Shown here: in pieces, positions 1,095-28,838 of the stretch
Numbering within the stretch: position 1 is the stretch's first letter
Layout of the letters: the number at the start of each line of letters is the position of its first letter
Source of the DNA: an uncultured Lachnospiraceae bacterium
GTDB lineage: Bacteria; Bacillota_A; Clostridia; TANB77; CAG-508
Assembly (NCBI GenBank): GCA_947165105.1
Contig: CAMUZC010000002.1
Coordinates: forward strand, 5,912 to 69,911
Length of the DNA stretch: 64,000 nucleotides
Reading direction: 5' to 3'
Notes under the pieces: generated by a model
Databases searched by the model: none
The model's input: only the letters and a program-made list of their open reading frames with translations
Told to the model about the DNA's origin: nothing
Program-made: the position numbers and the translations under genes

Positions 1095-2357
1095 ATGTTA
1101 GATTCAACTGGGACTCGGCAACTCGCATATGTTGTTCTTATTGATGGCATTGAGCCTATTCCTGACTATGATCGAGTAGAGCATGCTATTGTCGGCGGTT
1201 GGCGAGTAATCGTTCAGAAAGATCAATTTGATGTAGGTGATCCTGCTATCTATTTTGAGATTGATAGTCGTGTCCCGAAGGATAAAGAATGTTTCGCTTT
1301 CCTTGAAAAGCGTAATTATAAGGTAAAGACGTTAAAGATGTGTCACACGATCAGCCAGGGACTTCTTATGCACGCAAGTGACTTTGGCTGGGAAATCAAA
1401 GAGCAAATTTATATTGATCATAGAGATGGTAGCGAGGAGCGAATTCCCTATATCGTTGATGATAAAGGAATTGAGCATTATGTTGATGATGAATCTCGTT
1501 TTCTTACTAAAATTCTCGGTGTAACTTATGCCGATGAAGAGGATAATCAGCGTAAGGCTGAAAATATTGACCCTAATGCTAAATATCTTTCTATGAAGGC
1601 ACGCCATAAGAAATTTTTTAGTAATAAATTTATAAAGAAAATGTGGAAATATTCTTGGTTTAGAAAATTTTGTTTCTTCTTTATGGGAAAGAAGAAAGAT
1701 AAACCTCGTGGATTTCCTACTAAATTTCCTTTCGTGCATAAAAGTGATGAAGAGAGAGTTGAAAATATTCCATTCATTCTTAAAGATAAAGAGCCTTGGA
1801 TTAAAACTCAAAAAATTGATGGAACTAGTTCAACCTATATTCTCGAACGAATCGGTAAGAATAAGTTTGAAGAATATGTGTGTTCTCGTAATGTGCGGCA
1901 ATTAACTCCTTCACAAAAGAATTATCATACTGATATTGAAGGAAATGTATATTGGATGATGGCGGATAAATATAAGATTTTCGATTTTCTTAAATCTTAT
2001 CTTATTGAAAATAATCTTGATTATGTTTGCCTCCAAGGTGAAACTGCTGGACCTTCCTTGCAGGGTAATCCTCATAAATTTAAAGAAATTTGTTTCTTCG
2101 GTTATAATTTTATTCGATCTGATACTGGACGAATGAACAGTATTGAAGCAGCAAAAATTTGTAAAAATGCTGGTATCCCTTGGGTTCCTATCGCTGATAA
2201 AGCATATATTCTTCCCGATGATATGGAAACTCTTAAACTTGATGCTGATGGTCCTTGTCTTATAGGGGAAGGCCTTCGTGAAGGTTGGGTTTATCGTAGT
2301 TACGATGGTAAACAATCTTTTAAAAATGTTTCAAGAGAATATCTTCTTAAACATTAA
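1095..2357 (+). CDS. RNA ligase with N-terminal OB-like domain
   Basis: 420 aa, no TAG codons. The nucleotidyltransferase motif I KIDG is at about residue 240 (the Lys is the expected adenylation site), followed by a GETAG-type motif IV and a C-terminal EGWVYRS...SFK motif V. The ~130 N-terminal residues resemble the OB-fold domain that precedes the ligase core in the DRB0094/Rnl5-like family. This family seals RNA 3'-OH/5'-phosphate ends using ATP; the exact substrate is not visible here. It starts 7 bases after the preceding endonuclease, with AAGGAG upstream. Together with Thg1, kinases and the nucleotidyltransferase it suggests phage tRNA/RNA repair. Confidence 0.85.
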   Translation: MLDSTGTRQLAYVVLIDGIEPIPDYDRVEHAIVGGWRVIVQKDQFDVGDPAIYFEIDSRVPKDKECFAFLEKRNYKVKTLKMCHTISQGLLMHASDFGWEIKEQIYIDHRDGSEERIPYIVDDKGIEHYVDDESRFLTKILGVTYADEEDNQRKAENIDPNAKYLSMKARHKKFFSNKFIKKMWKYSWFRKFCFFFMGKKKDKPRGFPTKFPFVHKSDEERVENIPFILKDKEPWIKTQKIDGTSSTYILERIGKNKFEEYVCSRNVRQLTPSQKNYHTDIEGNVYWMMADKYKIFDFLKSYLIENNLDYVCLQGETAGPSLQGNPHKFKEICFFGYNFIRSDTGRMNSIEAAKICKNAGIPWVPIADKAYILPDDMETLKLDADGPCLIGEGLREGWVYRSYDGKQSFKNVSREYLLKH

Positions 2358-5358: not shown

Positions 5359-6573
5359 ATCTTTTAATATCAGATTAAGAATAACTCCTGCTACTAATGC
5401 TAATGCTGTTCCTGACAAACTAAATACAGCTCCACCTAATGCTATGCCACTAATACCAATAGCAAGAACAACAGAACAAATAATTAAATTCTTTGAAACT
5501 TCTAAATCAACATCTTTAAGAAGTTTTATACCAGAAGAACTAATAAACCCATATAGTACACAAGCAGTTCCTCCGCCAATAACACAACTAGGAATAGATG
5601 CGATAAAAGCTTGAATTGGTTCAAAGAAACCTAATAATATCATTAAAATAGCACTAATTATAGTTACTTGTGAAGATGCGCACTTACTAAAACCAATAGT
5701 TCCTACACTTTCTCCATAAGAACACGCGCCCAATCCTCCAAAGCAAGAAGAAGCAACATTAGCAACTCCTTCTCCTATAAAAATTCTTGAAAGCCCTGGC
5801 TTTTCATAAAGGTCTTTTCCAATAATATTACCTAATGCTTTATGATCGGCTAAACATTCACAAATAGCACTAACAGTAAAAGCTAAATACATTATGATAA
5901 TAGGAATAAGTTTTGTAAATTCAACAGCTTCAAATTTTGTAAAAGCAAAAGTTGGAAATACAAATAAATGAATATTATCAAATTTTGTAAAATCTACTAA
6001 ACCAAAAGGAATAGAAATTACATAACCTACTAATGTTCCAATAAGAAATGGAAACATTGACCAAATTCCTTTAAGATAATGATTGGCAAGAGCAATAGCA
6101 AGGACTGTAACTAAAGCAATTGATACACCGAGATTACCTGTATCACCTATATAACCACCAATAAAGCCCATAAGATTAATACCAATAACAATAGTTACTG
6201 AACCAATAAGAACTTTCGGCATAAATTTATATAAATTATCAACTGCAATATACTTAAAAATAATACCAAAAATCATATAAGTAAGGCAAGCTACTAAACC
6301 ACCTACTGCAACTGCCGTATAACCACCCGCAGCAAGTGCTGCTAAAACTGGTGCAACAAATGCTCCACTATTAGAAATAAACATAGGGGACTATCTATTA
6401 GTAATTAACCAATAAACAACTGTTGCCATACCTGCTCCAACAAAAGCTCCTGATAATGGCACATTACATATCTATGCTATTAAAGCAGTAGCTGTAAAGC
6501 AAGATAGCATCATCTAAATTGCAAATAAAATTAATTTATTAAAAGGTAGTTTATCATCTACATTATAAATCAA
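5341..6573 (-). CDS. uraA: Uracil/xanthine permease (NCS2 family), full length only with TAG read as Gln
   Basis: 410 aa. A standard-code reading would start at 6384 and miss about 60 N-terminal residues. Read through three in-frame TAG codons, the frame extends to a TTG at 6573 giving LIYNVDDKLPFNK, the classic N-terminus of uracil permeases. The body has about 12-14 hydrophobic spans and the family region AICECLADHKALGNIIGKDL. It would import nucleobases across the host membrane. The TTG overlaps the stop codon of the upstream gene (TTGA), so it is translationally coupled. A permease is unusual in a phage. Confidence 0.85.
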
Positions 6574-7222: not shown

Positions 7223-8077
7223 TTATTTAATCCTCAATGTTTTTTTAATAATATCTCTTTGAATATCATTTAAAATTATATCTACTTCTTCATTAATATT
7301 AATAGGATGACGATTAATAAAATTATCAGCATTATTTTGAATTAATTGATAATTTAATTCGGCAAGTTGATTAGCTTCTTCTTTAGAAAAATAAGTATTT
7401 TCTTTTAATTTAAGAATTATATCTTTACCATCTGGATGAAGACAATCAGCATATGGCCAATAAGAAGTATATTTTATAAGAAAATCAAAGATTCTAATAA
7501 GATGACTAATTGCTTTACCATCATAACCATATTTATTAATAATATTTGCTCTTTGAGCATGAGTATTATAAATGGCTTTATATCTATCTTTGGCAATACC
7601 CGCAATAGTTTTTACGGCTTTTACTTCATTATATCTAGCAATTAATTCTCGATTTTCAAAAAGTCTTTTAATTTCATCTTCATATTCTCTGTTAACAAGA
7701 ATCCAAGGAGAAAAAAGAATTTCAATAAAATTAATATTTTGATTTCTTAAAATACTAAAATAATTGCGAATATCAATATAATTAGTATGTTCATTATTAT
7801 CTCTGCAAGCTGTTGAAGAGACAGGTCGCCGTCCATAAATTACATCATTCAGAGTAGGAAGAACAATGAGCTTAGTGTCAACATCACTATCAAGTAAATC
7901 AAGCCCATAATTTTGGCTACCTTCAAGAGCGATAAAGACAATATTATGAGGGTTCATCCCATTATTAATAGCATCAATAAGATGGTCTTCTACTCTTTGA
8001 CGAATAGCAATATCTTTTTCAGTTTTAATATCACAAAATTTATCTGTGAAGAAAAAACTTAATTCACTTCGTGTCAT
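7223..8077 (-). CDS. Predicted nucleotidyltransferase (DNA polymerase beta-like superfamily)
   Basis: 284 aa. The GSQNYGLDLLDSDVDTKLI region is the GS-x(n)-DxD active-site pattern of the predicted nucleotidyltransferase family (PF10127-like, including phage RlaP-type proteins); a helical C-terminal half follows. The substrate is unknown, but RNA-end modification is plausible given the RNA ligase and Thg1 in the same phage. It overlaps the upstream gene by 14 bases. Confidence 0.75.
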   Translation of the reverse strand: MTRSELSFFFTDKFCDIKTEKDIAIRQRVEDHLIDAINNGMNPHNIVFIALEGSQNYGLDLLDSDVDTKLIVLPTLNDVIYGRRPVSSTACRDNNEHTNYIDIRNYFSILRNQNINFIEILFSPWILVNREYEDEIKRLFENRELIARYNEVKAVKTIAGIAKDRYKAIYNTHAQRANIINKYGYDGKAISHLIRIFDFLIKYTSYWPYADCLHPDGKDIILKLKENTYFSKEEANQLAELNYQLIQNNADNFINRHPININEEVDIILNDIQRDIIKKTLRIK

Positions 8078-8513: not shown

Positions 8514-9311
8514 TTAAATCAACCTTTCAAGAAAATCTCTACCTTCACCTTTAAGCATTGGCATAGTTTTATCAAGCACCCAAACGCCATCTTCATTTTT
8601 ATAGCAGCAAGTGCCTCGTTGTGCGCAAATTGGCATAGTTTCCCAATTTACGCCTTTTTCAGTTTTAAGCATTTCAAGAATATCTTTGGTAGTTTTTCTA
8701 TGTAGTTCTTTTTGAGAGAAGTAATATTGACCGCAAGACTGAATTGAATTACGCACTGCATCCAACTGACGCCAATAGATGCAATTTACTACTTCTTCTT
8801 TTGGAATATTAAAACAACGAGAATCAAACAGTGCCCCACATTTAATACAATTATTAAGATGGCTATGGTATTCATTTGCTTCACGCTGAATTTCCATTGA
8901 CTGCGGGATAAGACTATGATGCCAATCCCAAATCTCTTGTTCTGCTAGACGACGAAATTCCTGATTAAAATAAAGAGTTGCCATACTAGCTGATACAGAA
9001 GTAAGTTTTTCTACTTCATAGCCAAACCAAGCATCAGTAGTCAAAGTTTCATAATCAGTAAGAACAAGTGAAATTTCATCTGATTGATTATAAGCAAATA
9101 CACAACCTTGAATATTTTGAGCAAGCAATAACATAGTATTATCCATTGCTGCATGTAAAATATTATCCCAAGGTTTATTTAGATGTTTTGTAAAAGTATG
9201 AAATGCTTTGCCATCAATACGAATAATTACAGGAGTTCTTCGCATTAGACTGATTTGCGGAACTGCTTCATATCTTTTAATTCTTTTTCCTAATTCATCA
9301 TTCACCGGCAT
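8514..9311 (-). CDS. thg1: tRNA-His guanylyltransferase (Thg1-type 3'-5' polymerase)
   Basis: 265 aa from the ATG at 9311, chosen because AAGGAGG lies just upstream. Thg1 landmarks are present: IIRIDGKAFHTFTK (first metal-binding Asp), AYNQSDEISLV (second metal-binding region), FDSRCFNIP and YWRQLDAVRNSI. Thg1 enzymes add G-1 to tRNA-His; bacterial and phage Thg1-like proteins repair truncated tRNA 5' ends by 3'-to-5' synthesis. The phage also encodes a tRNA-His (12866), whose G-1 is already in the DNA, so end repair is at least as likely as G-1 addition. TAG-free. Confidence 0.9.
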   Translation of the reverse strand: MPVNDELGKRIKRYEAVPQISLMRRTPVIIRIDGKAFHTFTKHLNKPWDNILHAAMDNTMLLLAQNIQGCVFAYNQSDEISLVLTDYETLTTDAWFGYEVEKLTSVSASMATLYFNQEFRRLAEQEIWDWHHSLIPQSMEIQREANEYHSHLNNCIKCGALFDSRCFNIPKEEVVNCIYWRQLDAVRNSIQSCGQYYFSQKELHRKTTKDILEMLKTEKGVNWETMPICAQRGTCCYKNEDGVWVLDKTMPMLKGEGRDFLERLI

Positions 9312-9507
9312 TACTATTTTCCTCCTTATCATCATATTTAAATCTTTGATAACCAACAAACTTATCATCTGGATCTTTAACAGTTACACCATAAACTTTA
9401 ACAGTTTCTTCTACTTCAAAATGTTTTTCAAGAAGCCAGTCAATCCAATCTTCTGCCTAATAAGCATCTTCGGCTTCAATATCTAATGTAACAGTATATT
9501 TATTCAT
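9298..9507 (-). CDS. Small acidic protein (one TAG codon)
   Basis: 69 aa, one in-frame TAG near codon 17. Rich in Glu/Asp, with VTLDIEAEDAY and GVTVKDPDDKFVGYQRF; no known domain. Its end overlaps the Thg1 start. First gene of the Thg1 operon, behind the promoter at 9540-9568. Confidence 0.6.
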
Positions 9508-15142: not shown

Positions 15143-15310
15143 AAGGCACATACAGCAACCATTTTTTTGAAAATATTAACTTGTTTTCTAAGATAAAAAT
15201 TTTTTAGAGGTGCGGTTCCCTCTAACGACGATAATAAACTAAATCATTTTTCTCAAAAGAGAAGCACCAGAAAAATGATTTTATTATTTGGTAAGCTTCT
15301 TTGTGTCTTG
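15143..15310 (+). ncRNA. tRNA-like RNA motif, copy A
   Basis: AAGGCAC, two bases, ACAGCAA at the 5' end; GTGTCTTG at the 3' end, forming a 7-bp helix with one G-U pair. Inside: a GAAAA/TTTTC hairpin, a hairpin in the T-arm position (AGAGG/CCTCT), a long hairpin in the acceptor position, then a D-loop-like TTGGTAAGC. Followed by a GAAAC-stem hairpin and tRNA-Val. Confidence 0.65.
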
Positions 15311-16852: not shown

Positions 16853-16922
16853 AAGACTCTAACAGCAATTTTTATTTTTATAATGCTGACTGTTAATCTG
16901 CTAACTATAAAAATGAGTCTTG
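16853..16922 (+). ncRNA. RNA motif in mRNA leader, copy B
   Basis: AAGACTC, two bases, ACAGCAA at the 5' end and GAGTCTTG at the 3' end. The helix has a compensated U-A pair where other copies have A-U or G-C. The interior is an ATTTTTATA / TATAAAAAT hairpin topped by an arm resembling a tRNA-Asn anticodon arm. It lies between the promoter and the ribosome-binding site of the 16952 gene. Confidence 0.65.
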
Positions 16923-17648: not shown

Positions 17649-17757
17649 AAGACACAGACAGCAATTACACATAACTTGTGTGTCATCGGTTCGATTCCGA
17701 TATTGCGCGCTTGCGCTATTAGCTTAGATGGTAGAGCAACAAAAAAAACGTGTCTTG
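17649..17757 (+). ncRNA. Circularly permuted tRNA-like RNA, copy C
   Basis: In order: AAGACAC, AG, ACAGCAA; hairpin ACACA/TGTGT; a canonical T-arm (17685-17701, loop TTCGATT); an acceptor-like stem closed by the tetraloop GCTT (17702-17719); TA; a canonical D-arm with GG (17722-17737); an A-run; GTGTCTTG. The tRNA modules are present but permuted: the acceptor end is closed and the anticodon side carries the RNA ends. It lies between tRNA-Pro and tRNA-Gln and is followed by a strong GTGATTGC hairpin at 17757-17775. Confidence 0.75.
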
Positions 17758-17781
17758 TGATTGCTTCGCAATCACTTATAC

Positions 17782-17855
17782 AGTCCCGTGGTGTAATGGT
17801 AGCACGTCGGGCTTTGACCCCGCCGGTGTAAGTTCGAATCTTGCCGGGACTGCCA
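17782..17855 (+). tRNA. tRNA-Gln (TTG)
   Basis: Cloverleaf with encoded CCA, anticodon loop CTTTGAC, weak A1-T72 pair and G73, which fit glutaminyl-tRNA synthetase identity. It reads CAA and may also read CAG by wobble. One base mismatch at 27/43. Confidence 0.85.
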
Positions 17856-17943
17856 CCATGGTGTTTACCCTGGGTTTGACCACATTTCATAAGAACTCAA
17901 ACCCATAGAACTAAAAAACCAAAATTAAGAAAGGTTTAAAATT
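17856..17943 (+). other. Intergenic hairpin region
   Basis: A TGGGTTTGA / TCAAACCCA hairpin (17871-17905) with a 17-base loop but no T-run. Otherwise no feature seen before the next gene. Confidence 0.4.
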
Positions 17944-18135
17944 ATGGAAAAATTATATCAGTTAAATACAGGTGATATTTTTACAGTATCTGCTGATATA
18001 TTTTTAAAAACTAATTGGGATACTAATAAATTTAATTTTATTCAATATAATTATTATCCTAAACCTTGGTGGAAATTTTGGGAAAAAAGAAAATTAAAAA
18101 ATGTTACAATAATATATATAGGAGAGAGAAAATGA
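17944..18135 (+). CDS. Hypothetical small protein
   Basis: 63 aa with a Trp-rich basic segment (KPWWKFWEKRKLK) that could be membrane-associating or nucleic-acid binding. Overlaps the next gene (ATGA). Not recognised. Confidence 0.5.
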   Translation: MEKLYQLNTGDIFTVSADIFLKTNWDTNKFNFIQYNYYPKPWWKFWEKRKLKNVTIIYIGERK

Positions 18136-18404
18136 TGAGAGCAAAAATTCGTATTGATACTGTTTCAGATGTTTCTAATTTTGTTCGTGAAATTAATTCA
18201 GATGGTAGTATTAATAAATATATTGTTGAGAATGAAAAAGGTACACATCGTGTGAATGCTCGTTCTTATCTTGGTATGATTTATGCTTCTGCAGAATTTG
18301 GTGATGGAATGTATCTTGTTAATGAAACAGAAGATGGCCATTTCCCTGCTTTTATTAATAAATGGCGTCATACTGGAGAAGATGGTAATTTTATCCATAG
18401 ATAA
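18132..18404 (+). CDS. HPr-like protein lacking the phospho-His
   Basis: 90 aa from ATG 18132. The KYIVENEKGTHRVNARSYLGMIYASAEFG region resembles the HPr segment that follows the first helix (VNAKSILG-like). The His/Ser phosphorylation sites of real HPr are not apparent. Similar small HPr-fold proteins occur in phages of low-GC hosts. Fold assignment is tentative. Confidence 0.5.
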   Translation: MMRAKIRIDTVSDVSNFVREINSDGSINKYIVENEKGTHRVNARSYLGMIYASAEFGDGMYLVNETEDGHFPAFINKWRHTGEDGNFIHR

Positions 18405-18606
18405 TGGTATTAAAGTAGCTGGTATTTTCCCAGTGAATTAATAATACAATATACCAGGAGGTAGGGTTAGAAGCTCATCCTTTAAAGAGCGGATTGCGGC
18501 AGCTGGGTAATTCCTTGCGCGATAGCGACACTGGTACAGTTTAGGATAACTGAAAAAGCCTGCCGGGCAGGAGGAAACCGGGATATAAATGTCTCCTATA
18601 AAAAAT
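18405..18606 (+). other. Structured non-coding segment upstream of the tRNA-like gene
   Basis: About 200 bases with no gene. A 5-bp closing stem (AGGAG near 18457, CTCCT near 18596) surrounds several small hairpins: GCTC/GAGC, CGC-GATA-GCG, CAGTT/AACTG and CCTGC-CGG-GCAGG. It is much more GC-rich than its surroundings, which suggests a folded RNA. It ends about ten bases before the tRNA-like gene at 18607. No known family matched. Confidence 0.4.
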
Positions 18607-18730
18607 GGGGAATTAGGCGAAACTGGTACAGCCGCGTTATAGACGTGTCTTGATAAAGACAATGACAGCAATGTTTTTGCTTGCATGTGGAGCACGTGTA
18701 TTCGAGGTTCGAATCCTCGGTTCCCCACCA
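18607..18730 (+). tRNA. tRNA-like gene with RNA motif copy D in place of the anticodon arm
   Basis: Perfect acceptor (GGGGAAT / GTTCCCC), D-arm, canonical T-arm (CGAGG TTCGAAT CCTCG) and encoded CCA. Between the D-arm and T-arm are 68 bases with no 7-base anticodon loop. Instead GTGTCTTG-ATA-AAGACA forms a closed hairpin followed by ACAGCAA at the same spacing as in the other motif copies. A second pairing ACGTG/CACGT flanks the insert. It may be a tRNA-like RNA rather than a decoding tRNA; no amino-acid identity is assigned. Confidence 0.6.
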
Positions 18731-19351
18731 TCTTTTTAATAAGTGATTATTAAATGGTTCCCTGCCAAAAGAGGGACTTATTAAAAATATATCCTATAGG
18801 TGTATGATTTAAATCCTGGGGATGAAGTTGTTTAAGGGACAAGTTTAACTTAAACCGCGCGTCGTAGTGAAAGAGCGATTATTTTGGGTAAGGATTATTA
18901 TTATTTATTAATGTTATGTGTATTGCGGCAGTCTCACCGTTTTGTAAAAGATTCCCTTCTTCTGGTTAAAACTATTATCCCCAAAGTAATAGGATGAGAA
19001 ACGTTATTGTTTAACAATAAAAAATATTAACTGGAGCTGTGGCAGAAAAGCTTTTTTATATATGATACATAATTTTTGAGGGAGTTTGGGATTAAACCCA
19101 ATGGATATTTTTGAGGGAAACGATTTGGTGTAAGATATTGGGGCACACTTGATAGTCCTATAAAGGTCAGAGGAGTTAAAAACCCATTTAACAATCGTAG
19201 GTTCAAGTAGGGCAACCGGAGCTTGAAATGTAGAAAATTATGTTAAATATATAAAAAGCTTTTTTGTTTATGATAGTAAAGTAGTATATAATTTACTTAC
19301 AAATCATACTATTCAAAAACCATCTTTACTTTTTAAATAAAAATGATTTAA
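18731..19351 (+). other. Gene-free stretch with possible folded RNAs
   Basis: About 620 bases without a credible gene. One segment (about 18816-18985) has a TGGGGAT/ATCCCCA closing stem and an internal GTTTAAG/CTTAAAC hairpin. Another (19035-19225) contains a T-loop-like GGTTCAAGT but no complementary T-stem or acceptor, so no tRNA is called. The moderate GC and many short hairpins suggest RNA function. No group I core could be shown. Confidence 0.35.
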
Positions 19352-19834: not shown

Positions 19835-19908
19835 TGGGGATTGGAGTAACAGTAGCCCACCTGACTCTAAATCAGGATGCCCCGGGGCGGCACCGGGATC
19901 CCCTGCCA
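19835..19908 (+). tRNA. Candidate amber-reading tRNA (CTA), probably Gln type
   Basis: Anticodon loop CTCTAAA on a perfect CCTGA/TCAGG stem; 7-base acceptor with T1/T72 unpaired, G73 and encoded CCA. An open 1-72 pair and G73 are features glutaminyl-tRNA synthetase favours. The elbow is non-canonical: D-loop AACAGTA (A18 G19) and T-loop GGCGGCA (G55 C56), the same swap as in tRNA-His. D-stem has one A-C mismatch. This is the obvious decoder for the recoded TAG codons. Confidence 0.75.
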
Positions 19909-20379: not shown

Positions 20380-20452
20380 AAGACACTTACAGCAATTTAT
20401 ATAAAATCGCCATTTTTTTTATAGAAAATTTGATTTGTTTTCTGGTGTCTTG
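20380..20452 (+). ncRNA. RNA motif in mRNA leader, copy E
   Basis: AAGACAC, two bases, ACAGCAA at the 5' end; GTGTCTTG at the 3' end. Interior: an A/T-rich hairpin and an AGAAAA/TTTTCT hairpin, no T-arm. It lies 17 bases after a TATAAT (20358-20363, weak -35) and seven bases before the ribosome-binding site region of the next gene. Confidence 0.65.
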
Positions 20453-20745: not shown

Positions 20746-20858
20746 AAGACGCATACAGCAAATTTTTAAAAGGTTAAAGAAAAATTGCTTGTAAAATTTT
20801 TTGAGATGGTTCAAGTCCGTCAACTGGCGTTGAGTCCAGTATAAATAAATGCGTCTTG
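20746..20858 (+). ncRNA. tRNA-like RNA motif, copy F
   Basis: AAGACGC, two bases, ACAGCAA; GCGTCTTG at the 3' end (G-C version of the covarying pair). Interior: A/T-rich hairpin, canonical T-arm (20805-20821, loop TTCAAGT), and an acceptor-like hairpin ACTGG/CCAGT closed by an 8-base loop. No D-arm seen. Ends seven bases before the split tRNA-Leu. Confidence 0.65.
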
Positions 20859-20865
20859 TTTATAT

Positions 20866-21525
20866 GCGGGTGTGGTGGAATAGGTAGACACCAGGGACTT
20901 TAGCAAAATGCTATAGAGCACTAGGATAAGAAATTACCTGAGTGAATGCTGGCTAATTCGGTGAAAGTCTTAATAAGATAACGCCGAGCTAAGTTGAATA
21001 ATGATGGCTAACGGCAGTTGAATAGACAGGTCGGGGCTAGTAAAGAAAGGCTAGTAGGTAGTACGGCGGTAGGTAAGAAATCCGCAATCCGAAATAAGTC
21101 AGGAAAACTGAATGATACGGATTAGACTTCCACAATTGTGGTTGGAAAGATATTTTAGGTAATGGGTAACAACCATTAATAACTTTCCGTAAAGTACCTT
21201 GAAACTAGGTCATAGATACCACATCATTATTCATAAATGTGTAGAGACTATATACCAGCCTCCTAAGTCGTAAGATATGGAGAAGACATAGTCCAGACTA
21301 CAACATATAAATATAAGTGCTACGAAACAAGGATAATCGTAAGCGTTGTTTTGATCGAGATTCAACACTATCTATATGGTAAGTGTTAGCGTAAATATCC
21401 TGTTGAGCTGTAGTAAATGGAGTTTGATGAACAGCTTTTATTTTGTATGGCTATGGAGACATAGAGTAGTAAGAAAATCCCTTGGTCGCAAGACCGTGCG
21501 AGTTCGAGTCTCGCCACCCGCACCA
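20866..21525 (+). tRNA. tRNA-Leu (TAA) split by a group I intron
   Basis: 5' exon 20866-20900 and 3' exon 21474-21525 join into a full long-variable-arm tRNA with acceptor GCGGGTG/CACCCGC and CCA. Joined anticodon loop is CTTAAAA, giving TAA. The insertion point is between anticodon bases 34 and 35, the same site as the well-known cyanobacterial/plastid tRNA-Leu(UAA) intron. Confidence 0.85.
20901..21473 (+). other. Group I intron in tRNA-Leu(UAA)
   Basis: 573 bases. Follows an exon-terminal T and ends in G, as group I introns do. Core signatures: AATTCGGTGAAAGTC ... AACGCCGAG (P4-P6 region) and GACTATA ... ACATAGTCC (P7). No credible endonuclease gene inside. Exact 5' boundary could be 20900/20901 or one base later. 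Confidence 0.8.
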
Positions 21526-24997: not shown

Positions 24998-25441
24998 ATG
25001 GATTCAAATAAAATTAATTATCAACTTAACAATTGGACACAAAAATATTTTCATTTTAATGGTTTAAAATTTAGTTTAAATGAAGAATATTCAGCATTTA
25101 ATGTTACTAGAAATATGATTTGGCTTAATGGGGCAGAGCCTCATGAACATAATATTATTTTTCGCCAATTCTTATATGAATATGGAGCAACTTTAGCTGC
25201 AACTAATTTTAAAGATATTTCATTAATTTTTTTACATGAATTAGGACATTGTTTAACTCACAATTATTATGATAGTTTTAGTTTAGGTTTTTATGATTTA
25301 ATGAAACGTCTTGCTTCAGATGCAATTGCATATTGGCACGTTCAAGATGAATTTGAAGCTAATATGATAGTTGTTAATTTTATTAATAATAATCCAAAAG
25401 CAGTAAAAGAACTTGATATGATTTTTGAAGAATGGATGTGA
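24998..25441 (+). CDS. HExxH metalloprotease-like protein (paralogue)
   Basis: 147 aa. IFLHELGHCLT carries the HExxH and VQDEFEANMIVVNFI the likely third-ligand Glu, matching the 23337 protein in spacing. The shared DEF-AN signature points to one duplicated gene. Stop and next start nearly overlap. Confidence 0.75.
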   Translation: MDSNKINYQLNNWTQKYFHFNGLKFSLNEEYSAFNVTRNMIWLNGAEPHEHNIIFRQFLYEYGATLAATNFKDISLIFLHELGHCLTHNYYDSFSLGFYDLMKRLASDAIAYWHVQDEFEANMIVVNFINNNPKAVKELDMIFEEWM

Positions 25442-25445
25442 TATT

Positions 25446-26177
25446 ATGCCTGCTTTAGTCGCTAAAAGTTATAAAGATTTGGAACAATTGACTGAACCTT
25501 ATGAAGTAAATGGCAAGATGTATGTCAAAGTACGTATGAAATCTGGTCTTGCTAAACAGGTTAGAGCTTATACCGAAGCAGAATATAAAAGATATAATCC
25601 AGAAGTGAAGATTATTAAGAAAGGCAAACCTCGCTGGGAAGTTCTAGGATTTGGAGAAAAGAAATTCATTTGGATTTTTAAAGGAGATACTTACTCTGTA
25701 ATTGATTGGTTCAGAGTTTCTCCTTGCCGTTTTGCACGACCCTGGGGATGGTATCTTTCTAGTAATGAAGAATTGCCCGAGCCTTTACCCGCAGGGATTG
25801 AGCCAATTAAACTTGAATGGGACAAAGTCTCTTTTAATGATGAACTTATCCCAGAGAAAGATATTCAGCAAATTGTTGATAGTATGATTTATGATGCTGG
25901 AGCTAGTCAGTGGATGGGGCAGATTGGTGATAAATTAGATTTAACTTTAGTTTGCGATAAAGCGACTCCTGTTTTAAATAATTATGGAGAAAGTACTTTT
26001 CACGTATTTCACGATGAAGCTGGTAATATTTATACTTGGAGTACTACTGCCAAAACATTAATTCCTGGAAATAAATATGAAATGACTGGCACTATTAAGA
26101 GTTTAGATATTTATCGCAATCGAAAGCAGAATACACTTACTCGTTGTAGAGTTATTAAAGAGTTTGGTGAGAATTAA
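25446..26177 (+). CDS. Hypothetical protein with OB-like C-terminal domain
   Basis: 243 aa from ATG 25446. The C-terminal ~90 residues (DLTLVCDKATPVLNNYGES... TWSTTAKTLIPGNKYEMTG) have the strand pattern of an OB fold, often nucleic-acid binding in phages. The N-terminal half has no recognised motif. TAG-free and rather G/C-rich at third codon positions. Confidence 0.6.
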   Translation: MPALVAKSYKDLEQLTEPYEVNGKMYVKVRMKSGLAKQVRAYTEAEYKRYNPEVKIIKKGKPRWEVLGFGEKKFIWIFKGDTYSVIDWFRVSPCRFARPWGWYLSSNEELPEPLPAGIEPIKLEWDKVSFNDELIPEKDIQQIVDSMIYDAGASQWMGQIGDKLDLTLVCDKATPVLNNYGESTFHVFHDEAGNIYTWSTTAKTLIPGNKYEMTGTIKSLDIYRNRKQNTLTRCRVIKEFGEN

Positions 26178-26180
26178 AAA

Positions 26181-26354
26181 ATGAGAAATATTGACTGTGG
26201 GCATTGGTCTTGTAATAACTGCCCCGATAAAGAGAAGTGTAATATTTTAGCAAAAACAAATATTGGAATATATTTGTTAAGTGTTACTACTATTTTGGCA
26301 ATTGGGTTAATGGTATGGTATGTCTTTGATATTTTATATATCTTTTTGCCGTAA
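26181..26354 (+). CDS. Small membrane protein with Cys-rich head
   Basis: 57 aa. N-terminal CGHWSCNNCPDKEKC, then one membrane helix (about residues 29-52). Three bases after the previous stop. Function unknown. Confidence 0.55.
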   Translation: MRNIDCGHWSCNNCPDKEKCNILAKTNIGIYLLSVTTILAIGLMVWYVFDILYIFLP

Positions 26355-26361
26355 TTAAAAA

Positions 26362-26435
26362 GTGCGGTTACCAAATTTTTGCTATTTTTAATATAGACTA
26401 TTTATAAACAAAATAACAAAAATTTGGTAACCGCA
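26362..26435. repeat. Dispersed inverted repeat, copy 2
   Basis: About 74 bp; arms GTGCGGTTACCAAATTTTT and AAAAATTTGGTAACCGCA. The centre (TTTAATATAGACT...TTATAAACAAAATA) is shared with copy 5. Confidence 0.85.
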
Positions 26436-26449
26436 ACCTTCTTATAAAA

Positions 26450-26877
26450 TGAATACATTATTATTTGAAGCTAAATTAGCAAAAGAATATAAATATCAAA
26501 AACTGCCACCTGTTATTTCTAATCTTTGTCGAGAAACCTATTTAAAAAATATCCCAGCTTCTCTTTCTCTTAATGGGGGAGGCCCCATTTATACTCTATG
26601 TGGAACTTTAATAACGTCCCATTATAATCGTATTGTGATTGGCGATTATGGCGCCTTTATTGAATTTGATACTCCAAATTATAATCAACTTATTACTTCT
26701 ATTGGAGAAGAATATCGTTCTAACAGTGATTGGAAAAATTGTAAATATGAATGGCTTACAATGAAAGATAGAAGTGATATAAAAATATATTATCAAAAGC
26801 ATACAGTAGATTATGCTGATTATAAGATTGGAAAATATTATGTATCTGTTCACGAAGTAATCGCAGGAAAGGAATAA
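26450..26877 (+). CDS. Hypothetical protein
   Basis: About 142 aa starting right after inverted repeat copy 2 (ATG 26449/26450). Contains a GGGPIYTLCGTLITSHYNRIVIGDYGAFIEF core, beta-rich. No clear ribosome-binding site and no promoter of the common type upstream; transcription may come through the repeat. Not recognised. Confidence 0.6.
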
Positions 26878-27329: not shown

Positions 27330-28838
27330 ATGAATTCTTTTCTTAATGGTATGAAGAATGAGACTAATTTTGGTTATACTGAGAATGGCGCGATTACTCA
27401 TCGCACCTCTGGTAATGACCTCCTTGATATGTTCGCAGAGGGTGGAGCTTATCGCGCTCGCAGCGAGAGTGATTGCATTGTTCTTTTTAAGAAGGCATTT
27501 GCAGAGAACCCTGTATATGCAATGAAGTGCCTGTTCTACTTAGGCGACGTGCGCGGCGGCCAGGGAGAACGTCGTTTCTTCAAGGTTTGTTTTAATTGGT
27601 TGGTGAATAACCATCCTGATGTTGCCAAACGTAATCTTCAGTATATCCCTGAATATACTAGATGGGATATGCTTTATAAGGTAACTTATAAATCTAATCT
27701 TTGGAACGCAGCTATGGAGATTATCAAGGAGCAGCTTGCTGCTGATATGACTAGTTTTGTAGCTGGTTCTAACATTGGGGTTAGTCTTCTTGCGAAGTGG
27801 CTTCCTAGTGAAAATACTTCTAGCAAAGAAACTCGTATGTATGCGAAGTCTATTCGTAATGCTATTAATATGACTAGCCGCCAGTATCGTAAGACTCTTT
27901 CTGCCCTGCGTGAGCGCATTAACGTTCTTGAACGTCTTATGAGCGCAAATCGTTGGGATGAAATTGAGTTTGACCAGATTCCTTCTAAAGCTGGTTTGAA
28001 GTATCGCAATGCCTTTGCGCGTCGTGATATGATTAAGGCTAAGTATGAGGCTTTTGCTAAGGATAAGAATACTAAGGTCAATGCTACAACTCTTTATCCT
28101 TATGAAGTTGTTAGCCAGGCTATTAAGTGCAATAGTTATGATTTGAACGATACTAATCGTTTGATGATTAATAAGTATTGGGATAATCTGGCAGATTACT
28201 TTGCTGATGCCACTTTGGATGCTATTTGTGTCTGTGATACTTCTGGCTCAATGACTTGGGGCAGCAATAATATTCAGCCTATTGATATTGCTATTTCATT
28301 GTCTCTTTACTGCGCTGACAAATGTCGTGGTCCTTTCGCAGGACATTACATTTCATTTGCTTCTAGACCGCAGTTAATCCGCACTGAAGGCGTAGACTTT
28401 GTAGATAAAGTAAAGCGTATTTACAAGACTAACCTTTGTGATAATACCAATATCGAAGCTACTTTTGACCTTATTCTTAATATGCTTCGAAATGGTAAGT
28501 GCAAACCTGAGGATGTTCCTTCTACTCTTCTTATCATTAGTGATATGGAGTTTGATGCTGCGCGTGGTAGTAGCTACTACTCTCGTAGTAGAAATAGCGT
28601 GCGCACTCTTATGGAAGGAATTGAGGCAAAGTGGAATGCTCTTGGTTACAAGATGCCTAAGCTTTGCTTCTGGAATGTTAATGCCAGAAATGACAACATT
28701 CCTATGAAGGTTCAGGATGGAGTACTTTTTGTCTCTGGAGCAAGTCCTGTTATCCTCAAGCAGATTCTCACTAGTAAGGACCCTTATACTCTTATGATGG
28801 ATGTCCTGAATAAAGAGAGATACGCTCCAATTCATTAA
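27330..28838 (+). CDS. DUF2828 / Ro60-TROVE-like RNA-binding protein with von Willebrand A domain
   Basis: 502 aa. N-terminal helical-repeat part has FYLGDVRGGQGERRFF and IPEYTRWDML, the DUF2828 signature that resembles the HEAT-like TROVE domain of Ro60. The C-terminal part is a vWA domain with MIDAS motif DTSGSM at about residue 307. Ro60 proteins bind misfolded RNAs and Y RNAs in a ring. Single-gene unit with its own promoter and strong terminator; codon use is richer in G/C than its surroundings and TAG-free, suggesting high early expression. A partner for the tRNA-like RNAs at 15-21 kb is an inference. Confidence 0.8.
   Translation: MNSFLNGMKNETNFGYTENGAITHRTSGNDLLDMFAEGGAYRARSESDCIVLFKKAFAENPVYAMKCLFYLGDVRGGQGERRFFKVCFNWLVNNHPDVAKRNLQYIPEYTRWDMLYKVTYKSNLWNAAMEIIKEQLAADMTSFVAGSNIGVSLLAKWLPSENTSSKETRMYAKSIRNAINMTSRQYRKTLSALRERINVLERLMSANRWDEIEFDQIPSKAGLKYRNAFARRDMIKAKYEAFAKDKNTKVNATTLYPYEVVSQAIKCNSYDLNDTNRLMINKYWDNLADYFADATLDAICVCDTSGSMTWGSNNIQPIDIAISLSLYCADKCRGPFAGHYISFASRPQLIRTEGVDFVDKVKRIYKTNLCDNTNIEATFDLILNMLRNGKCKPEDVPSTLLIISDMEFDAARGSSYYSRSRNSVRTLMEGIEAKWNALGYKMPKLCFWNVNARNDNIPMKVQDGVLFVSGASPVILKQILTSKDPYTLMMDVLNKERYAPIH

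Follow-up and report, generated by a model that had tools for sequence, protein, structure and literature searches.

Six short elements, lettered A to F by their order along a 64,000-nucleotide (nt) stretch of DNA, share a conserved stem and the sequence ACAGCAA, and they are probably noncoding RNAs of one Y-RNA-like family that displays tRNA-mimic modules on a Ro-like protein in a decoy or repair role. The stretch (hereafter the window) comes from an uncultured Lachnospiraceae bacterium (GenBank assembly GCA_947165105.1, contig CAMUZC010000002.1, forward-strand positions 5,912 to 69,911), and it also carries a gene for a DUF2828–DUF7788 protein. Sequence analysis of the window and related loci brings out the RNA family with its structure classes and its link to this protein gene, together with the predicted Ro60 fold of the protein and, in bacteria, a neighborhood of RtcB and RlaP genes. 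The original prediction, drawn from the letters of the window, had singled out positions 17649–18730 and interpreted the shared motif as a circularly permuted tRNA mimic; it left copies A and F without coordinates and could not have revealed the partner gene.

The permutation is clearest in copies C and D. We folded the window copies with ViennaRNA as unconstrained minimum-energy structures. In the predicted fold of copy C (−28.7 kcal/mol for the whole), the motif strands at 17649–17655 and 17750–17756 form a 7-bp stem, AAGACAC/GTGTCTT. Between them lie ACAGCAA (17658–17664), a hairpin (17666–17682), a T arm (17685–17701; ATCGG TTCGATT CCGAT), an acceptor-like stem (ATTGCGC/GCGCTAT at 17702–17719, with six of seven pairs) closed by a GCTT loop at 17709–17712, and a D arm (17722–17737). 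Copy D begins and ends instead with its acceptor strands (GGGGAAT/GTTCCCC, 18607–18613/18720–18726), which enclose a D arm (18616–18633; stem GGC/GCC), a motif hairpin, GUCUU-GAUA-AAGAC (18645–18661), ACAGCAA (18665–18671) and a T arm (18703–18719; CGAGG TTCGAAT CCTCG); ACCA follows, with CCA at 18728–18730. These are the arm orders that the original prediction had written down, including the GCTT-closed acceptor of copy C, which the unconstrained fold reproduces, and the GATA-closed motif hairpin of copy D, which is seen in both sequence and fold. The range that it gave, 17649–18730, also covers a normal tRNA-Gln and a small open reading frame (ORF), neither of which belongs there. Neither copy C nor copy D is listed as a tRNA by ARAGORN or Rfam RF00005. 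The anticodon of copy D is uncertain, with a split His GUG arm readable by eye (CG…TGC ATGTGGA GCACG, the ellipsis marking the split) versus a stable hairpin in the predicted fold.

Table 1. Features of the window, with the RNA copies and their candidate partner gene listed before the RNA-repair genes.
Feature	Positions	Strand	Description and basis
Copy A	15143–15310	+	168-nt RNA; motif stem AAGGCAC/GTGTCTT; T-arm-like hairpin
Copy B	16853–16922	+	Motif stem and short insert
Copy C	17649–17757	+	Y-RNA-like RNA with permuted tRNA domain; fold; YrlA RF02553 match; among the 22 permuted copies
Copy D	18607–18730	+	Normal-order tRNA-like RNA with the motif as internal hairpin; sequence, fold and acceptor pairing
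Copy E	20380–20452	+	Motif stem; short insert with GCCAT
Copy F	20746–20858	+	Motif stem, T arm and acceptor-like hairpin
Ro60-like protein gene	27330–28838	+	DUF2828 and DUF7788 (Pfam); PHROG 850, RNA-binding protein; predicted fold matches Ro60
RNA ligase gene	1095–2357	+	PF09414
RlaP-like nucleotidyltransferase	7223–8077	−	PF10127
Thg1-like tRNA guanylyltransferase	8514–9368	−	PF04446

To place these copies in a family, we used the window and 160 related loci fetched by protein search, namely 80 virus loci (L001–L080, kept from 226) and 80 loci from bacterial or archaeal assemblies (L295–L374, kept from 532). The latter are mostly Clostridia by title, with one labelled Lokiarchaeota (L307); many come from metagenome bins, which may include contigs of viral origin, and isolates include L304, L346, L353, L355, L364 and L365. 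Removal of near-duplicates reduced 341 copies to 307 distinct ones (5 from the window, 138 viral and 164 bacterial or archaeal), with up to seven distinct copies at one locus. In a set of 191 copies chosen on sequence alone, Watson–Crick pairing holds at stem pairs 1, 6 and 7 with frequencies of 0.927, 0.942 and 0.921, as compared with 0.597, 0.429 and 0.617 for shuffled partners.

The cargo of the stem falls into classes. A T arm is present in 82 of the 307 copies, with 22 in permuted order (T then D), 25 in tRNA order and 35 with the T arm only; the corresponding shuffled means are 0.03, 0.0 and 0.75. The acceptor is closed in 19 of the 22 permuted copies versus 1 of the 25 classed as tRNA order, two of which (window copy F and L015:2752) are probably misclassed through a chance D-like stretch. 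An anticodon-arm-like hairpin occurs in 91 of the 307 copies (shuffled mean 10, maximum 17), most often with the anticodons UUU (15) and GAA (8). Copies of a D type with acceptor, D arm and T arm number 21 in the window and all loci except controls; when 40 anagram cores replaced the motif, 38 gave none and two gave one. Copy D itself is in a looser acceptor-pairing list and fails the stricter D-arm pattern behind this count. Permuted copies also occur in cultured phages (arms assigned by eye), namely Alf5 (L379:10426–10552), PJN02 (L377:5797–5924) and Porthos (L380:7383–7505), and five copies in the 11 bacterial loci searched pass the Rfam tRNA threshold (in L324, L355, L356, L364 and L374; for example, L374:4651–4709). 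Both arm orders are thus found in homologous loci, each with the conserved strands, and copies C and D can be considered circular permutations of one arrangement, as had been proposed. The accompanying argument, that an RNA whose fold survives permutation is under selection, is likewise upheld, and permuted and D-type copies exceed their shuffled and anagram counterparts.

In D-type copies, the motif interrupts the 5′ strand of the anticodon stem. At least one full 5+7+5 anticodon arm can be assembled in 14 of the 21, three of these 14 without T33, and the permuted copy L048:7930 has the same break by eye (CG…GGA CTTTTAA TCCCG). The same arrangement thus exists with its ends either at the motif or at the acceptor. 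A rival idea is that D-type and permuted copies are genuine precursor tRNAs with the motif as an insert in the anticodon stem, which would be excised before the phage RNA ligase or RtcB rejoins the halves into a working tRNA. Ligase genes do lie near, several D-type copies have a split stem that pairs completely on either side of an intact loop, for example L057 (CG…GGT CTGTTAA ACCCG) and L311 (CG…AGC CTGTTAA GCTCG), as it does by eye in L048:7930, and NCCA starts the loop in 7 of the 19 closed permuted acceptors. We nonetheless regard a precursor role as improbable: the split position varies, 7 of the 21 D-type copies lack a full arm and most copies of the family contain no tRNA to release.

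The remaining window copies show how much the cargo differs. The motif consists of strand 2 (approximately AAGACNC, then NN-ACAGCAA) and strand 1 (approximately GNGTCTTG). A relaxed window scan found five plus-strand copies in the order strand 2, insert, strand 1 (starting at 15143, 16853, 17649, 20380 and 20746) and copy D in the order strand 1, loop, strand 2; it also gave three chance-like matches without the consensus strand letters (11442 on the plus strand, 17276 and 58583 on the minus strand). Copy F retains the T arm and acceptor-like hairpin that had been ascribed to it. Copy A, described earlier as a looser version, fairly deserves that wording, as it has a T-arm-like hairpin alone (TTAGAGG TGCGGTTC CCTCTAA in the predicted fold) that falls outside the T-arm pattern; it resembles a 170-nt RNA at L002:3958–4127, the two forming a longer subtype with an inner structure of its own that is only loosely tRNA-like. 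The insert of copy B is readable as an anticodon arm, GCTGA CTGTTAA TCTGC, with four of five pairs, and its free minimum-energy fold differs. The GCCAT module of copy E recurs in the inserts of 21 of the 307 copies, versus 10 after base shuffling. Overall, the constant part of the RNA family is the stem plus ACAGCAA, and the module it carries is exchangeable.

The motif travels with the gene for the DUF2828–DUF7788 protein. The 80 virus loci contain 175 gene-strand and 7 opposite-strand occurrences of ACAGCAA together with a complementary 7-mer; gene-strand copies are present in 63 of these loci. Anagram cores, of which 40 were tested on the virus loci, gave 0–12 gene-strand matches, except for AACAGCA (38) and CAGCAAA (54), which score high through overlap with the true motif. 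The bacterial and archaeal loci show the same bias (171 versus 4; 69 of 80 loci), and 94 control loci gave four matches on each strand. Searching in reverse, by RNA pattern alone, we found at least 120 stretches, 80 of which were the source of 37 chosen contigs (at least 50 kb, one stretch per contig, outside the 80 protein-search loci); DUF2828 was present on 34 of these versus 2 of 17 arbitrary contigs. The latter were taken from 94 control stretches, each contig being at least 50 kb, and these stretches came from a second control pattern, the first having given no matches. The anagram pattern matched nowhere in the collection scanned by RNA pattern.

The DUF2828 protein is found in 682 of 50,697 phage records. 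Twelve loci of isolated phages, hand-picked from the 682 and including two Listeria and two Mycobacterium phages, hold 30 gene-strand and 3 opposite-strand copies. Phages with copies include Listeria A511, E. coli Alf5, Campylobacter PC14, Staphylococcus S-CoN_Ph2 and Mycobacterium LeBron; matches in Vibrio KVP40 (214 nt, approximately 5.4 kb from the gene), PJN02 (14000) and phi1_175008 (4513 and 9550) look like chance. As a contrast, we considered the phylum of the genome that contains L355, where 7 of 398 genomes (that genome included) have DUF2828 and 9 have TROVE: none of the nine TROVE loci, which are only approximately 3 kb long, has a gene-strand copy, and two chance-like matches lie on the opposite strand. 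Together, these comparisons make both the RNA family and its tie to the Ro60-like protein well supported.

Position relative to the gene bears on a different explanation, that the copies are cis-acting leader or processing elements of neighboring genes or tRNA transcripts. Most distinct copies precede the protein gene (124 of 138 viral, 159 of 164 bacterial or archaeal), 147 of the 164 end no more than 1.2 kb upstream of it, and window copies B and E stand directly upstream of ORFs. Copies are also found between tRNA genes (window copy C), many kilobases from the protein gene (the window) and 3′ of the gene in Staphylococcus and Mycobacterium phages, and tandem arrays of different modules are unlike a single leader, which makes a cis-acting role very unlikely. 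That the copies are decayed tRNA genes with chance pairing has a negligible probability in our view: the region is a tRNA array and copy D does resemble a damaged tRNA gene, but the anagram, shuffled and control-locus comparisons all speak against it.

The window protein was connected to Ro60 by fold comparison alone, with a structural match of the predicted fold that covers the helical N-terminal part as well as the VWA-like part. PDB sequence searches with the protein and with its alignment returned no Ro60. The protein matches DUF2828, labelled as of unknown function in Pfam, and DUF7788, and not the TROVE profile (PF05731), which none of the 10 motif records searched carries.

Ro60 proteins and Y RNAs offer the closest known parallels, for which the sources are cited here from excerpts. 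A bacterial Y RNA (PDB 6CU1) superposes on tRNA with a circular permutation (PMC11472068), so permutation as such was already known. Copy C matches the YrlA family (RF02553) with 33.3 bits at 17658–17770 (E value of 3.2e-4 in 10 kb and 6.4e-6 in 201 bases), and both have a T arm, a sealed acceptor and a D arm between the strands of a terminal stem. The YrlA/Rsr system likewise has a partner with the Ro60 fold and an operon with RtcB (PMC7790460), as in the bacterial loci here; the Salmonella rsr-yrlBA-rtcBA operon responds to damaged tRNA, and its authors raised the idea that the tRNA-like domain of YrlA competes with an anticodon nuclease (PMC7790460). Unlike YrlA, the present RNAs have a stem with NN-ACAGCAA, a DUF2828–DUF7788 partner rather than a TROVE protein, up to seven distinct copies per locus and exchangeable modules that include anticodon arms and interrupted tRNAs. 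A YrlA-like match at L071:9829–9944, which the motif scans did not list, adjoins the protein gene on its 5′ side.

Phages provide further parallels. In Listeria phage CKA15, a Ro-like protein was detected in particles (20 peptides, 57.1% coverage), three strongly transcribed regions were reported and the authors proposed Y RNAs (PMC12282133). These suspected Y RNAs, and the mycobacteriophage Y RNAs known here by citation in the same paper, are also phage-encoded near a Ro-like gene; the excerpt gives no motif for the former. TROVE proteins occur in a small subset of jumbo phages (PMC7824862), and a Vibrio jumbo phage has a Ro60-related protein (PMC7765460). The tRNA-Lys of phage T5, which resists the anticodon nuclease of PARIS, is similarly a tRNA-shaped phage RNA in a contest over tRNA cleavage, but it replaces the cut host tRNA in translation (PMC11455837), whereas the RNAs described here seem unable to decode as they stand. 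The literature searched held no description of the ACAGCAA motif, though key Y-RNA papers lay outside the reach of the search; for DUF2828, it returned plant papers, judged by title. The RNAs matched no Rfam 15 family of their own.

Permuted transfer-messenger RNA (tmRNA) and the permuted tRNA genes of algae and archaea have a tRNA fold with relocated ends and mature to a working tRNA or tmRNA. The ends of the present RNAs are instead held by a conserved stem, and no splice signal was seen. That ground, and the lack of a tRNA in most copies, led us to set aside algal-type processing of a permuted tRNA gene. A tmRNA was set aside, as the ARAGORN and Rfam scans gave no such match on the window copies, and so was a self-cleaving ribozyme, for which the Rfam scans list none on the window copies; a RAGATH-33 match at 21007–21119 sits elsewhere.

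A number of results weigh against display of tRNA mimics by a Y-RNA-like family. No T arm is found in 225 of the 307 copies, 58 of which have an anticodon-arm-like hairpin, so the motif is not itself a tRNA mimic: the description of it as a circularly permuted one applies to copy C and fails for the motif, a constant stem plus ACAGCAA with exchangeable cargo. With the patterns used, no T arm and no anticodon-arm-like hairpin is recognized in 167 of the 307, which leaves mimicry unsupported for half of the family, and copy C, without an intact anticodon loop, is no obvious anticodon decoy. Gene-strand copies are missing from the fetched flanks of 17 of the 80 virus and 11 of the 80 bacterial or archaeal loci, 3 of the 37 motif contigs lack the protein, and PADLOC has no model for the DUF2828–DUF7788 protein. 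In Listeria cka18, the motif RNAs at 25,289–25,552 do not overlap the one CKA15 transcribed region for which the excerpt gives coordinates (26,236–26,727), and the cka18 stretch that matches that region if collinearity is assumed (L375:6489–6980) has no ACAGCA; it may be another noncoding RNA. As for YrlA, the gathering score of 69 bits is not reached by copy C, by L048:7949–8054 (33.2) or by L071:9829–9944 (33.6), the match in copy C starts at 17658 and excludes the motif strand at 17649–17655, and the YrlA consensus line has no ACAGCAA. Because both the score and the stem consensus fail, we set the family, itself well supported by sequence, outside YrlA, and its placement as a variant form of Y RNA is our own call.

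The main rival is a Y-RNA gate and tether. The RNA would cover the Ro-like ring, and its variable module would tether an effector such as a nuclease, the complex serving RNA quality control or decay rather than defense against tRNA damage. The predicted Ro60 fold fits such a gate or tether, as does the Deinococcus Rsr–Y RNA–PNPase precedent quoted in the excerpts of PMC7790460 and PMC12282133; different partners could be tethered by the several copies of a genome, and 167 of the 307 copies show no tRNA feature with the patterns used. Gating or tethering alone does not account for why anticodon-arm-like hairpins, with their varied anticodons, are in excess. We favor a role in which tRNA mimics are displayed as decoys or as cofactors of repair and consider the gate or tether less likely, if still the foremost competitor.

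RNA-repair genes are part of the setting, and in bacteria the RNAs often lie beside RtcB. Besides the three such genes in Table 1, the window phage encodes P-loop (AAA_33) proteins. An RtcB cluster (identified by Pfam from one member tested) is present on the gene strand in 28 of the 80 bacterial or archaeal loci, with a median start 1.46 kb past position 6001, where the protein gene begins in 51 of the 80; an RlaP cluster (two members tested) is present in 6 of the 80. Two upstream ORF clusters occur in 30 and 29 of the 80, and four of five members tested match WYL or WCX, two of them below the Pfam cut-off. The Thg1-like gene shares its phage with copy D, whose anticodon arm can be read as His GUG with A73, possibly a coincidence.

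The tRNA region of the window holds other features of its own. Stretches at 18455–18605 and 18740–19240, which flank copy D, are G+C-richer and noncoding-looking, each contain ATTGCGGCAG and may be a large structured RNA. A tRNA-like gene at 19835–19905 (Rfam, 36.2 bits) has the anticodon loop CTCTAAA and, by eye, the anticodon CTA. As several ORFs of the window would be interrupted unless TAG encodes an amino acid, the window phage probably recodes TAG. Two tRNA-Leu-like halves at 20865–21525 enclose a long insert with the RAGATH-33 match (128.6 bits), perhaps a self-splicing intron.

In the mechanism that we favor, the conserved stem with NN-ACAGCAA would most likely be the docking site for the DUF2828–DUF7788 protein, and the variable part would be the displayed module. 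This would often be a tRNA mimic, consisting of a single arm (anticodon or T) or of a complete tRNA body joined to the motif by either its acceptor end or its anticodon stem. When the anticodon stem makes the junction, the RNA termini fall at the motif, as in copy C with its closed acceptor, or at the acceptor, as in copy D with its closed motif. The RNA–protein complex would present tRNA look-alikes for tRNA-directed enzymes to bind, by which anticodon nucleases or other tRNA-damaging factors may be competed off, or damaged tRNA may be handled jointly with the RNA-repair enzymes encoded nearby. We infer such binding, display and decoy or repair roles. A more tentative extension is that the arrays are tRNA decoy libraries, in which one Ro-like scaffold carries numerous interchangeable RNAs, every one a mimic of a specific tRNA or anticodon arm. 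Were that true, phages (and Clostridia) could deploy specific sponges or sensors directed at anticodon nucleases, and specificities would be gained and lost by insert swapping, including circular permutation of the same tRNA. If the broader reading is right, hundreds of sequenced phages, a number of Clostridia and other bacteria, and the Lokiarchaeota-labelled contig L307 carry an RNA–protein machine of this type, which would add to the Y RNAs a second family marked by a clear motif and natural circular permutants of one fold for comparison. Phages of laboratory hosts (E. coli Alf5 and Bacillus PJN02) would then make the role of tRNA-mimicking Y RNAs testable.
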